DNA of 64,000 nt, taken from NCBI GenBank assembly GCA_944322635.1, contig CALUPL010000057.1, positions 1 to 64,000 on the forward strand. The letters run 5' to 3'. This DNA comes from an uncultured Mailhella sp. GTDB lineage: Bacteria; Desulfobacterota; Desulfovibrionia; Desulfovibrionales; Desulfovibrionaceae. Each line of letters opens with the position of its first letter. Position 1 is the first letter of the stretch. Below the pieces are notes generated by a model that was not told the DNA's origin, made no database searches, and worked only from the letters and a program-made list of their open reading frames with translations. The position numbers and the translations under genes are program-made. Positions 4,753 through 42,418 of the stretch are shown in pieces.

Positions 4753-5026
4753 CTGTCAAGACGAAAGCAATTATTTCTCAACATACTTATTTTATTGTTT
4801 TATTACTCATTTGCGCTTCAAACTTCCGCCTGTGTCCAGGGGTCGAATTTCACGCTGCGGGATGCTGTGCTACCGGAGAGATGCCGTAAAAAAGCTTGTG
4901 TCGGCCCGTTTTTTCTCTGTCGGCAACGCGATGCAGGGGTGCATGAGGCAATGCCTTTGCCGGGAATCGGGCAAAAAATTCAAGCAGAACTTGAAAAACG
5001 TCCTTTTGCCGAAACGGAATCACGGT

Positions 5027-5055
5027 TTGACCCGTCCCGAAAACTTCAATAATAT
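5027..5055 (+). promoter_or_regulatory. CRISPR leader promoter
   Basis: TTGACC (5027-5032), a 17-bp spacer and TAATAT (5050-5055) form a sigma70-type promoter that would start transcription at about the first base of repeat 1 (5062). It is the repeat-proximal end of a gene-free stretch (4705-5061), AT-rich at 4760-4820, that serves as leader. Almost the same arrangement precedes the degenerate array at 33784. Its direction agrees with the trailer-end repeat decay at 6099. Confidence 0.6.
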
Positions 5056-5061
5056 GTCAGG

Positions 5062-6119
5062 GTCTTCCCCACACGCGTGGGGGTGTTTCTATTTGCCCTA
5101 CTCAATCCGTCGCACAAGAATTGTCTTCCCCACACGCGTGGGGGTGTTTCTATGCCTATATAACGGGAGCTTGCAAGTTAGGAGTCTTCCCCACACGCGT
5201 GGGGGTGTTTCCGCAGTTCTTGAACTCCCTCAATTCATTGCCAGGTCTTCCCCACACGCGTGGGGGTGTTTCTTACGGATGATTGTTTACTGATGATTTC
5301 AAAAAGTCTTCCCCACACGCGTGGGGGTGTTTCTCAGGATTTCTGGACGCTTGCACGTATCTTCGCGTCTTCCCCACACGCGTGGGGGTGTTTCTTTCTC
5401 CACCACACTACACGCGGTGAAGTATGAGTCTTCCCCACACGCGTGGGGGTGTTTCTTTCGTGAGGGTCAAACCGTGCGCCGGTGATGTGTCTTCCCCACA
5501 CGCGTGGGGGTGTTTCTGACGGCAGGTATGTCGTCAAGTTCAAGGACGTGTCTTCCCCACACGCGTGGGGGTGTTTCTTCATAAAGATTCTTGATTATAT
5601 AATTGAGGAAGTCTTCCCCACACGCGTGGGGGTGTTTCTAGCTGTTTATGTCGCTTCCGTAGAAATGAAGGGTCTTCCCCACACGCGTGGGGGTGTTTCT
5701 TGTCCATGGATGCCTCCCTTACTGCACCGCGGGTCTTCCCCACACGCGTGGGGGTGTTTCTATCCGTGTCAGCTACTAGGAGGCGACATGCTGGTCTTCC
5801 CCACACGCGTGGGGGTGTTTCTGTTTTTTTGCATAAAACCCATTGACGTTTTCAGTCTTCCCCACACGCGTGGGGGTGTTTCCTGGCCTGAAATCAGGCT
5901 TCAAAGGTTTAAAAGGTCTTCCCCACACGCGTGGGGGTGTTTCTGATGTTTTCCAGACCGTCATTCTGCACGGCGAGTCTTCCCCACACGCGTGGGGGTG
6001 TTTCTTTTTTCTAGCATTGCTTTTTCATTCCCCTTTGGTCTTCCCCACACGCGTGGGGGTGTTTCTAAGTGGTACAGACGACCGGCCGCATATCACCGGT
6101 CTTCCCCACACGCGTGGGG
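5062..6119 (+). CRISPR. Intact type I-E-like CRISPR array, 18 repeats and 17 spacers, no cas genes
   Basis: The repeats are 29 bp, starting GTCTTCCCCACACGCG and ending GGGGGTGTTTC plus T or C. They start at 5062 and recur every 61 bp without exception to 6099, so every spacer is 32 nt. The palindromic core CCCCACGCGTGGGG-like and the length match type I-E repeats. By comparison with known I-E arrays the crRNA strand is the plus strand. The last repeat (6099) breaks after 21 bases and a further decayed unit follows at about 6154, marking the trailer end. The leader promoter is at 5027-5055. No cas gene occurs anywhere in the window, so processing and interference would need Cas proteins encoded elsewhere. 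All 17 spacers look different from each other; I could not match them to targets. Confidence 0.98.
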
Positions 6120-6278
6120 TCTTCCCCGGTTGTGTTTTCCGTGCATGGACTGCGTTTTTCCCGCGTATGCGGACTTTTTCAGCCTCCGCCCGCCCCCGGA
6201 ACGAAAAATGCGCCTTGCCCCCGACCCCATTTCCCGTTTTTTCCGAGGCGAAAAACACGGTGAATGCGTGACGAAAAA

Positions 6279-33461: not shown

Positions 33462-33744
33462 AGCATTTCTTTTCCCTTTCAGCCTTTTTCCTTTTAACTT
33501 TAAGACAGGGATGTTCTTTCGTTCGAAGGAAGGAAACGACGGGGGGACGAGGCGTTTCCGGAAATTCCGGCGTTCCGCAAAAGACAGCCCGGAAAGCCTT
33601 CTGCGCGGCGGCGTTTGCGTTGGTCTTCGCCCAGGCGAATGCCGGAACGGCTGCGCGGGCACTTCGTGGGGGGGATTCGAGCGTCGCCCCTGCGAGTGCC
33701 GGAACGACGCCTTTCCGCCTTGGCCGAAGACAGGGCGTCTGTGT

Positions 33745-33773
33745 TTGACGTCCCGCCAAAAGTTCAATACTAT
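33745..33773 (+). promoter_or_regulatory. Leader promoter of the degenerate CRISPR array
   Basis: TTGACG (33745-33750), 17 bp and TACTAT (33768-33773) end 10 bp before the first repeat. The whole stretch is similar to the leader of the intact array. Both share GTTTGAC, TCCCG, AAAA and TTCAATA in the same order, and in both the -10 box lies 6-10 bp from repeat 1. Confidence 0.6.
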
Positions 33774-33783
33774 TTCACTCAGC

Positions 33784-34110
33784 GTGTTCCCCGCGCACGC
33801 GGGAGGACCCCATGGCCGTGCCGTTTATGATGGCGCCCTGCAGCGTGTTCCCCGCGCACGCGGGAGGACCTGCAACAGCAACGCGCAAGGTCATCAGCCG
33901 TCTTCCCCGCGTACGAGGAAGGTTTTCCGGTACGACTCGCGGACAGCCGACAGGAAAGATTTTCCCCATGCATGTGGGGGTGTTTCCTGGCTGTTGAGCA
34001 CCACTCTTGCCGGATCAGGTTTTCCCGCTCTCGCGGGGATGTTGTCGTCGGGAGGTTCCGAACCTGGCACCCTTCCGCCTTTTCCCCGCATGCGGAGCCC
34101 GGCTGCTCCG
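33784..34110 (+). CRISPR. Degenerate second CRISPR array with a conserved leader
   Basis: Six repeat-like units start near 33784, 33845, 33900, 33959, 34019 and 34079 (steps 61, 55, 59, 60, 60). The first two share GTGTTCCCCGCGCACGCGGG and the following GAGGACC, so they are good repeats. The next four diverge progressively: GTCTTCCCCGCGTACG, TTTTCCCCATGCATGTGGGG, TTTTCCCGCTCTCGCGGGG, TTTTCCCCGCATGCGG. Decay therefore grows away from the leader promoter at 33745-33773, as expected when new units are added leader-side. The fourth unit is closest to the repeat of the intact array. No cas gene is nearby. The rest of the gap 33312-34412 holds only the Fur site and the AsmA promoter. Confidence 0.75.
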
Positions 34111-34353
34111 GTCTGCCGGGTCGTGCGCCCCCGCGCCACGCCTTCCCCCGCGCCGCAGAAACACGTCATGCGCGCCGCCTCGCTGCCCTTCCGCAGAGAA
34201 AAACGGCGGGACTCATGAAGAACGCACAGTTCCCCCCGCAGTCCCCTTCCGGGCGCGCCCTTTCGTCAGCATCCATTCCCGTTCCCCGGCCTGAGCCTCC
34301 CTCTCCCCGCCCCTCTTTTTTCCTCTCCTCCCCCGCCTGCCCGGAGAAGGGAC

Positions 34354-34380
34354 TTGCCCCGCCTGCCGATTCTGTATAGT
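34354..34380 (+). promoter_or_regulatory. Promoter of the AsmA-family gene
   Basis: A near-consensus TATAGT (34375-34380) lies about 32 bp before the ATG. TTGCCC at 34354-34359 gives a short 15-bp spacer, so the -35 assignment is tentative. Confidence 0.45.
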
Positions 34381-34412
34381 GTAGGCCAATAAACCGTTCG
34401 CCGGATAATCAG

Positions 34413-36338
34413 ATGCTGCGAAAAATACTGCTTATTCTCGTTCTTCTCGTGCTTGTGGCCGGTGGCGGCCTTTTCGCGCTGGTGGCCACAAACAGCGACA
34501 TCATCATCGACAAGTTCAACGCCTACGTGGAAAACAGCACCGGCGCGCCCCTCGTCACGGAAAAGGCTCCGGAACTCACGCTGTTTCCCAACCGGGGACT
34601 GGAACTGTCCGCCAGCTCGTGGAAAAGCCCCGACGGCACGCTGGAGTTCAGCTTCAGCCGCGCCTCGGTGATGATTTCCTCCCACGCCCTCTTCACGGGC
34701 AAGTTCAGCATCAAGAACTTTTCCGTTGACGACCTCAATCTGACCATGCGGCTCAAAAAGCCCGTGGCGGAATATCTCGACGGCATTCCCGCCAGCGTGG
34801 AACACCGGCGCGACTTCGACGACCTCATTCAAACCATTCTCCACGCGCTGCGCATCGCGCCGGACAACATCAGCATCGCCCGCGGACGGGTATGCCTCGT
34901 TCAGCCCGACGGTTCCACCGTCGTCTTCTCTCCGGTCACGCTGAGCGCAACCAACGTGCATCCCGGCACGGCCACCAAGTTCAATCTTCAGACGGACATC
35001 GAAGGCTCCTCCCCCTATTTCCACGCGGGCGTGGAGCTCAACTGCTCCGCCCTGCTCGACAAGAAAAAAGCCTCCTTCGCCATAGAAAAGGCCATGCTCA
35101 CCCCGGGCAACGGCGTGGCGTTCCGCGAATATCTCAATCTTTCCGGGGAGCTGGAGTACGATTTCGACAGCGATGCGCTCACGCTTTCGCAGCTGCACTT
35201 CAAAGGCCCGGATCTTTCGGCCACGGCCTCGGGCAGCGTGGACTCCCTCGCGCGCATGTACAGCGATCCCGTGCGCGGCGACGCCTCGCTCAAGGTGGAA
35301 ATAGAAGGCGATCCGCAGCGCATCAGCTCCATCATTCATCATCCCCTGCCCTTTGCCGATCACAACATCTTCAGCGACTGCGCCTTCAGCGCACAGATGC
35401 GCTGGTCCGGCGGAAAAATGACCATGACCGGCATACAGGGCAAGGCCGACGAACTCACCTTCAGCGGCAATCTCGCCGTTTCGCCCAATCCCTTTGTGAT
35501 CACCGGCGACCTCAAGCTCGGCGACCTCAACCTCGACGACTACAAAAGCAGCGAAACCGCCACGCCCAGGAATCTGGAAAGCCGCGACTTCACCCGCTGG
35601 CCCCGCGTCAATCTTCAGCTTTCCGCCGAACACGTCCGCTGGAACCGCGTGCATCTGGAAAGCGTGAACACGCGCCTTGCCGGTCAGAACGGCACCTATG
35701 AATTCAATCCGCTTTCGGGCATTCTGGCCGGAAGCCCGGTTACCGCAGCCATGAAAACCGTCATGCTGCCCACCACGCCGCTTTCCTCGCGTCTGTCCGC
35801 CAACTTCAGCGTGCCGCAGGCCAATCTGGACGAACTTTCCCGCGCCGTTGCCGACCGGCCTCTGCTCACGGGCAGCGGCTCCATCAACGCCTCGCTCTCG
35901 TTCACCACGTCGCGGGGCCTGCCCTCGCTGAGCGGCAAGGGCAGTCTCACCTCCTCGCAGGTGGAAACGGCGTTCAGCATTCTGCCCTCCAGCATTCCGC
36001 TTGCCGGCAACCTGCTTTCCACCAACCGTTTCGACAGACTGTTCCTTTCCTTCACCGCCAAGAGCGGACAGGTTGCGGTGGACAGGCTCGAACTCGAAGC
36101 GCCCAGACTCTCGCTTTCCGGCTCGGGAAACGTGGATCTCGTCAACAAAACCCTCGATGCCTCCGGCTCCGTGCAGATGCCCGGCAGCGCATCCCTGCCC
36201 GTGCGCCTCGAAGGCGATCTGAACGCGCCGCGCTACTCCCTCGCCGGAGAAGAGGCAAAACGCACGCTCTCTTCCAAAGCCATAGATCTGGACCTCAACC
36301 TGCCCCGCCAGCTGCGCGACATTCTGGGCGGCCACTGA
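34413..36338 (+). CDS. AsmA-family envelope protein
   Basis: This 641-residue protein has one N-terminal membrane anchor (LRKILLILVLLVLVAGGG) followed by a large beta-rich periplasmic part. Features match AsmA: GAPLVTEKAPELTLFPNRGL near 44-63, FSVDDLNLTMRLKK near 103-116, and the C-terminal repeated segments with GSGNVDLVNKTLDASGSV near 575-592. AsmA-like proteins act at the inner-membrane/periplasm interface and are linked to phospholipid transport and outer-membrane integrity. It starts a cluster of three plus-strand genes, with 14 bp to the next. Confidence 0.85.
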   Translation: MLRKILLILVLLVLVAGGGLFALVATNSDIIIDKFNAYVENSTGAPLVTEKAPELTLFPNRGLELSASSWKSPDGTLEFSFSRASVMISSHALFTGKFSIKNFSVDDLNLTMRLKKPVAEYLDGIPASVEHRRDFDDLIQTILHALRIAPDNISIARGRVCLVQPDGSTVVFSPVTLSATNVHPGTATKFNLQTDIEGSSPYFHAGVELNCSALLDKKKASFAIEKAMLTPGNGVAFREYLNLSGELEYDFDSDALTLSQLHFKGPDLSATASGSVDSLARMYSDPVRGDASLKVEIEGDPQRISSIIHHPLPFADHNIFSDCAFSAQMRWSGGKMTMTGIQGKADELTFSGNLAVSPNPFVITGDLKLGDLNLDDYKSSETATPRNLESRDFTRWPRVNLQLSAEHVRWNRVHLESVNTRLAGQNGTYEFNPLSGILAGSPVTAAMKTVMLPTTPLSSRLSANFSVPQANLDELSRAVADRPLLTGSGSINASLSFTTSRGLPSLSGKGSLTSSQVETAFSILPSSIPLAGNLLSTNRFDRLFLSFTAKSGQVAVDRLELEAPRLSLSGSGNVDLVNKTLDASGSVQMPGSASLPVRLEGDLNAPRYSLAGEEAKRTLSSKAIDLDLNLPRQLRDILGGH

Positions 36339-42215: not shown

Positions 42216-42224
42216 ATACAGGAA

Positions 42225-42360
42225 CTCTCAGGGCGGGGTGCAAGTCCCCACCGGCGGTGAACCTCCGAATGCGGAGGCAGCCCGCGGGCGCGTTTTCAAG
42301 GGAAAAGCGCAGATCCGGTGCAAGTCCGGGGCCGACGGTAACAGTCCGGAAGAAAGAGAA
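42225..42360 (+). promoter_or_regulatory. FMN riboswitch (RFN element)
   Basis: All conserved blocks of the RFN aptamer are present in order: GGGCGGGGTG-CAAGTCCCC, ACCGGCGGTGA, a variable hairpin, AGCCCGCGGGCGC, the long P4 arm, ATCCGGTGCAAGTCCGGGGCC, GACGGTAACAGTCCGGA and AGAAAGAGAAC. It precedes ribBA and would switch off riboflavin synthesis when FMN is high. The expression platform seems to be the hairpin at 42419-42440. Confidence 0.95.
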
Positions 42361-42418
42361 CGGATCCTTCGCCTCAGTCGTTCTGAAGCATTCTCCTCTC
42401 TCCTAGCGCCTTTTGCGG

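Follow-up and report, generated by a model that had tools for sequence, protein, structure and literature searches.

Type I-E CRISPR arrays in the genus of this Mailhella-like bacterium have the repeat GTCTTCCCCACxxxCGTGGGGGTGTTTC and a leader of the form TTTGAC...TTCAATAATAT. The array that we describe here resembles them in its leader, its spacing of near 61 bp, the position of the stem, and its orientation. It differs from them in that its repeats are drifted and unequal, its 3' handle is altered, it has few units, and its first spacer is self-derived. As for self-targeting spacers in general, a missing PAM and mutated repeats are among the reasons that they are deemed non-effective (review, PMC6990116). 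Our array has a perfect match to its own genome, as they do. Unlike self-targeting spacers with a PAM mutation, it has the PAM on the opposite side, which indicates a flipped insertion instead of a PAM mutation. Oppositely oriented spacers have been reported for type I-E adaptation in E. coli (Shmakov 2014, cited in PMC6896009), and 2.25% of the spacers in one primed-adaptation study were shifted or inserted in the opposite orientation (PMC6896009). As far as the citing article describes the E. coli spacers, they share with our locus a wrong-side PAM in an otherwise exact 33-nt unit, but they were acquired in the laboratory, whereas our locus is natural and the spacer lies in a drifted repeat.

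The ectopic-repeat guides of the CreTA and scaRNA kinds also have a sequence matching the cell's own chromosome flanked by degenerate repeats (PMC9458426, PMC8501985). In two-repeat creA genes, the repeats diverge from each other and a leader is lacking (PMC8501985), and CreA-type guides have partial complementarity to a promoter, with a PAM adjoining (PMC8501985, PMC9458426). Our locus has a leader, identical repeats around the matching sequence, a full-length match to a coding region, and no PAM for the guide. Because these CreA-type features are absent, we regard the locus as an I-E array in decay, its first spacer being self-derived and probably flipped. Its components are all of known kinds.

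The window (the whole stretch of 64,000 nucleotides that was analyzed) is contig C57 of a 2.59-Mb Mailhella-like MAG (112 contigs, 88% complete). The degenerate array sits in the gap between feo and asmA, with a gene for a small Cys-rich protein (minus strand) on one side and an AsmA-family gene at 34413 on the other. The Cys-rich protein gene has a Fur-box-like sequence, AAATGAAAATCATTTTC (as read from the sequence), and the downstream gene is common to uncultured Mailhella sp. and one Desulfovibrionaceae MAG (named relatives). Elsewhere in the window, there is an FMN riboswitch at 42220-42365 (RF00050, 95.4 bits).

Positions 33744-34106 of the window are a degenerate type I-E CRISPR array (Table 1). 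We scored the region with a position model of the I-E repeat, chaining units at steps of 53-64 bp, and used 300 dinucleotide shuffles as the control. Six chained units had a total score of 88.0, while the shuffles had a mean of 4.9 and a maximum of 14.6, which confirms the six-unit array proposed in the initial annotation. The units start at 33784, 33845, 33900, 33959, 34018, and 34079, with steps of 61, 55, 59, 59, and 61 bp. Even without units 1 and 2, units 3-6 score 58.9 (shuffle maximum, 16.4). The repeats are thus regular, at about 28 + 33 bp, with repeats 3-6 degenerate; a cognate leader lies directly upstream of repeat 1, and I-E cas genes are present in the genome. The coordinates, unit steps, and promoter given in the initial annotation were all correct. 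Two points are corrected. The match of spacer 1 (see below) fixes the frame of repeat 1 at 33782-33809, not from 33784. The decay of the units with distance from the leader is not monotonic, as unit 4 comes nearest to the intact repeat (25.9) and unit 6 is the weakest (2.9). Units 1-3 have a GCG-type stem in common, and unit 4 is nearer to the genus repeat.

Table 1. Features of the degenerate array and of the intact array in the same window.
Feature	Position	Strand	Remarks
CRISPR leader	33744..33779	+	promoter TTGACG-17-TACTAT; genus leader model score 36.9
Repeat 1	33782..33809	+	GCGTGTTCCCCGCGCACGCGGGAGGACC; drifted, 3' handle shortened; score 15.0 from 33784
Spacer 1, self-derived	33810..33842	+	reverse reading T followed by GCAGGGCGCCATCATAAACGGCACGGCCATGG
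Repeat 2	33843..33870	+	identical to repeat 1
Spacer 2	33871..33899	+	about 29 nt; its unit is 6 nt short
Degenerate repeat 3	33900..33928	+	score 17.2
Degenerate repeat 4	33959..33987	+	score 25.9, nearest to intact repeat; matches genus intact repeats
Degenerate repeat 5	34018..34046	+	score 12.9
Degenerate repeat 6	34079..34106	+	score 2.9, weakest
Intact array leader	5026..5061	+	genus leader model score 45.3
Intact I-E array	5062..6119	+	repeat GTCTTCCCCACACGCGTGGGGGTGTTTC + Y + 32 nt

That the degenerate array retains a leader homologous to the intact array's, as had been proposed from the promoter, is well supported by three sequence comparisons. First, we built a leader model from eight other leaders of the genus, leaving out the intact leader of the window. 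Across both strands of the whole window, the intact leader at 5026 ranks first (45.3) and the degenerate array's leader at 33744 ranks second (36.9); the next score is 12.2. Nine other genus leaders align without gaps over 36 nt, and the degenerate array's leader has 20-28 identities to them over these 36 positions. Second, the pattern TTTGACN{7,11}AAANNTCAATANNAT, which was worded to fit both window leaders, including the degenerate array's, has two matches in the window (0 expected) and six across 19 genomes of the genus; apart from the degenerate array's own leader, these are five leaders that belong to intact arrays. Third, the alignment of the two leader regions has a local score of 37, versus at most 26 in 2000 shuffles. 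In a promoter scan, TTGACG-17-TACTAT was the sole sigma-70-like match in 33500-34450 (0.1 expected). The degenerate array's leader is also nearer to the model than are the leaders of two further arrays of this genome on contig C66 (36.9 versus 16.4 and 9.6).

Contig C66 also carries the cas genes. It has model matches for cas3, a cse1-cse2 fusion, cas6e, cas7, cas1, and cas2, and an ORF after cas7 is cas5-like by appearance. The I-E cas locus is apparently complete and lies on a contig other than the window's. Cse1 and Cse2 form a single fused ORF of 671 amino acids (L009:10944-12959). The C66 arrays, which exist besides the intact I-E array in the window, lie before cas1 and after cas2 (L010:547-1370 and 2680-2830); the latter has three repeats and carries the variant GTCCTCCCC. 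Their leaders both score poorly against the model (16.4 and 9.6) and are without a TTTGAC box. In the window itself, the intact array likewise fades into repeat-like remnants at its distal end (6099-6170).

The most informative feature of the locus is its self-derived spacer, which lay beyond the view of the initial annotation. Spacer 1 (33810-33842) matches another contig of the same genome at 33 of 33 positions (C6:62613-62645, minus strand; E = 4.8e-10), a full-length match to its own chromosome outside of the array. The target is nucleotides 416-448 of the coding region of an intact autotransporter ORF of 1110 amino acids, which has a signal-like start and an autotransporter beta-domain, as well as a zincin-type motif (HEMGHALGI) that was read from the sequence. 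On the array strand, spacer 1 is antisense to the autotransporter mRNA. The target site is present with 1-3 mismatches in five relatives. The core of spacer 1 had no exact matches in the viral contigs searched. Spacer 1 is self-derived and is the newest-looking entry of the array.

The remaining spacers gave no comparable matches. Spacer 2 had no matches in its own genome, in genus genomes, or in viral contigs; for spacers 2-5 as a group, nothing convincing was found in its own or genus genomes or in phages (the best E value, 0.03, was judged to be chance); and the cores of spacers 2 and 4 had no exact matches in the viral contigs searched. No spacer of either intact array of this genome had a full-length match to the genome. 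One spacer of the window's intact array (5639-5671) has a partial match of 23 nt at 96% identity to C31:40724-40746.

The orientation of spacer 1 can be judged from the PAM. Position 29 of the units in genus arrays is T in 82 of 153 cases and C in 69 (Y in 151 of 153), and the last PAM base is carried in the array in the I-E system of this genus. We identified 14 distinct protospacers, presumed to be prophage sequence, in the genomes of relatives; some of these matches include as many as 6 mismatches. AAC or AAT is found at 11 of the 14, and AGT, CAC, and CGC are found once each. Judged from these protospacers, the PAM of this I-E system is 5'-AAY. (A search against named phages for this purpose gave no matches.) In the leader direction, the flank of the self-target reads ..atAGT/CCATGG, with the slash at the boundary of the match: AGT is followed by C, and AAY is absent. 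In the reverse reading, ..gcggAA/T/GCAGGG.., AAT lies exactly at the boundary of the 33-nt match and gives a 28 + 1 + 32 frame. AAY would be expected by chance at the reverse boundary in 1 of 32 cases, or in about 1 of 16 if both orientations are counted. For this one spacer, then, the system's PAM is at the far end of the protospacer, and from the AAT and the frame we infer that spacer 1 was probably inserted flipped. Against this, spacers are rarely inserted flipped, and the PAM argument is drawn from a single spacer. Also, the repeat frame assigns the final CA of the match to the spacer, yet this CA is within the 30-nt identity of repeats 1 and 2.

No flip would be needed if the array were on the minus strand, with the repeat GGTCCTCCCGCGTGCGCGGGGAACACGC: spacer 1 would then be normally oriented with an AAT PAM, and it would be harmless only because the array is leaderless on that side and silent. 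The unit does read as 28 + T + 32 with the AAT PAM on that strand, and an array in the same gap of a distant relative scores on both strands. But the leader and units 3-6 are all on the plus strand, and no minus-strand position in the window scores above 9.9 as a leader, the best being at another place. We consider this reading very improbable. Somewhat more room should be left for another account without a flip, in which the spacer was captured independently of a PAM or by another CRISPR system and units 1 and 2 would belong to a different repeat lineage behind the leader. The first 20 nt of repeat 1 are the same as the start of a genuine I-E repeat in a genome of the family (G122; GTGTTCCCCGCGCACGCGGGGATGAACCG), but the 3' end of repeat 1 is unlike that of this family repeat. 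Nor did we find a second locus of this type: there is no other copy of repeat 1 within 3 mismatches in its own genome, and its 20-nt core (at most 1 mismatch) is absent from the 15 genus relatives searched. This account would also leave the AAT at the reverse boundary to chance, with a probability of 1 in 32. We view this account as a minor possibility.

Besides its orientation, spacer 1 is flanked by unusual repeats. Repeats 1 and 2 are identical at 30 of 30 positions (33780-33809 versus 33841-33870). On the 3' side of the stem, the intact repeat reads GTGTTTC plus Y and repeat 1 reads AGGACC. The RNA of repeat 1 is still predicted to form a hairpin, with part of the 3' region paired into the stem. 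Since the change in the handle is present in both copies, it would have preceded the duplication. With the PAM on the wrong side and the handle altered, it is doubtful on two counts that spacer 1 functions as a guide, and any such guide should be harmless to the host.

Could the locus nevertheless be a domesticated guide, in which a leader-driven, crRNA-like RNA from repeat 1, spacer 1, and repeat 2 directs Cascade to repress the autotransporter, much as CreA and scaRNA repress their own targets? In its favor, the promoter, a pair of repeats that can still fold, and the perfect match to the own genome have all been kept while the rest decayed; the genome has a cas locus; and such guides typically have degenerate repeats (PMC9458426). 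However, the sequence next to the seed is AGT and then C instead of AAY, the match is full length and within the coding region (nt 416-448) instead of a promoter, the locus has a leader and identical repeats where divergent repeats without a leader would be expected, and the handle is altered. Overall, a regulatory, crRNA-like role for the spacer 1 unit is unlikely, and it seems to us very improbable that an I-E mini-array with a normal leader was domesticated to guide Cascade in tuning the host's autotransporter.

We favor the explanation, at a probability of roughly 70%, that this is a decaying I-E array that may still be writable, and that its last entry is a flipped, self-derived, and harmless spacer. 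The I-E cas genes of C66 would act on the array in trans. Because its leader has stayed close to the genus consensus, Cas1-Cas2 could still insert at the leader end despite the drifted repeat and the shortened 3' handle. A 33-bp fragment of the autotransporter gene would have been captured beside a proper AAT PAM and inserted in the opposite orientation. The leader-proximal repeat is the copy template at each acquisition. The insertion would have duplicated a repeat that had already drifted, which would be why repeats 1 and 2 are identical and units 3-6 are different. A flipped spacer provides a leader-driven guide with no AAY, and the handle is altered as well. For these two reasons, the guide would not direct Cascade-Cas3 to the chromosome, and the self spacer would be tolerated. 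Gene conversion could also make repeats 1 and 2 identical, and the source genome is an 88%-complete MAG. The locus looks like a natural case in which CRISPR writing outlived reading, as an array with a kept leader and drifted repeats still gained a spacer, a self fragment that its orientation would make harmless. If confirmed, it would allow a concrete test of the tolerance of Cas1-Cas2 for repeat divergence, and also of the idea that flipped insertion lets self spacers persist in cells whose system is apparently complete.

As to the history of the site, the initial annotation had suggested either a shared ancestor or a replacement of repeats within one leader-defined locus. Replacement is not established, as ordinary drift of the leader-proximal repeat would give the pattern of units 1-4 too. 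We compared the syntenic gap, which is complete in seven relatives (L015-L019, L021, and L022) and partial in L014. The nearest relatives have no array in the feo-asmA gap, and none of the relatives with this syntenic gap has an intact version of the degenerate array. The sole array among these gaps is that of a distant relative (L021, from genome G015), and it is different from the window's. Since the other relatives are without this array and G015's is different, a shared ancestor at this site is not established. The G015 gap array has the repeat GTTTTGTCCCCGTGCGCGAGGGGAATAC four times, the first copy being slightly different (L072:4785-5010, G015:C68). It scores on both strands, lacks the genus leader pattern, and has spacers with no self match. 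On the minus strand of L018, two weak units score 19.3 (shuffle maximum, 16.0).

Two further observations come from relatives' genomes. In G015, a leader and one repeat followed by cas7 was considered as a self-targeting guide and rejected. The frame continues into cas7, cas5, cas1, and cas2, so the junction (L071, G015:C133, at about 2870-2960) seems to be a deletion or misjoin that fused a leader and a repeat to a truncated cas operon. In G010, the last three repeats of a long array (L070:10031-10180, G010:C13) share an altered 3' end (GGGGGGGAGAC versus GGGGGTGTTTC), as though repeats with an altered handle had at one time been copied in that array as well.
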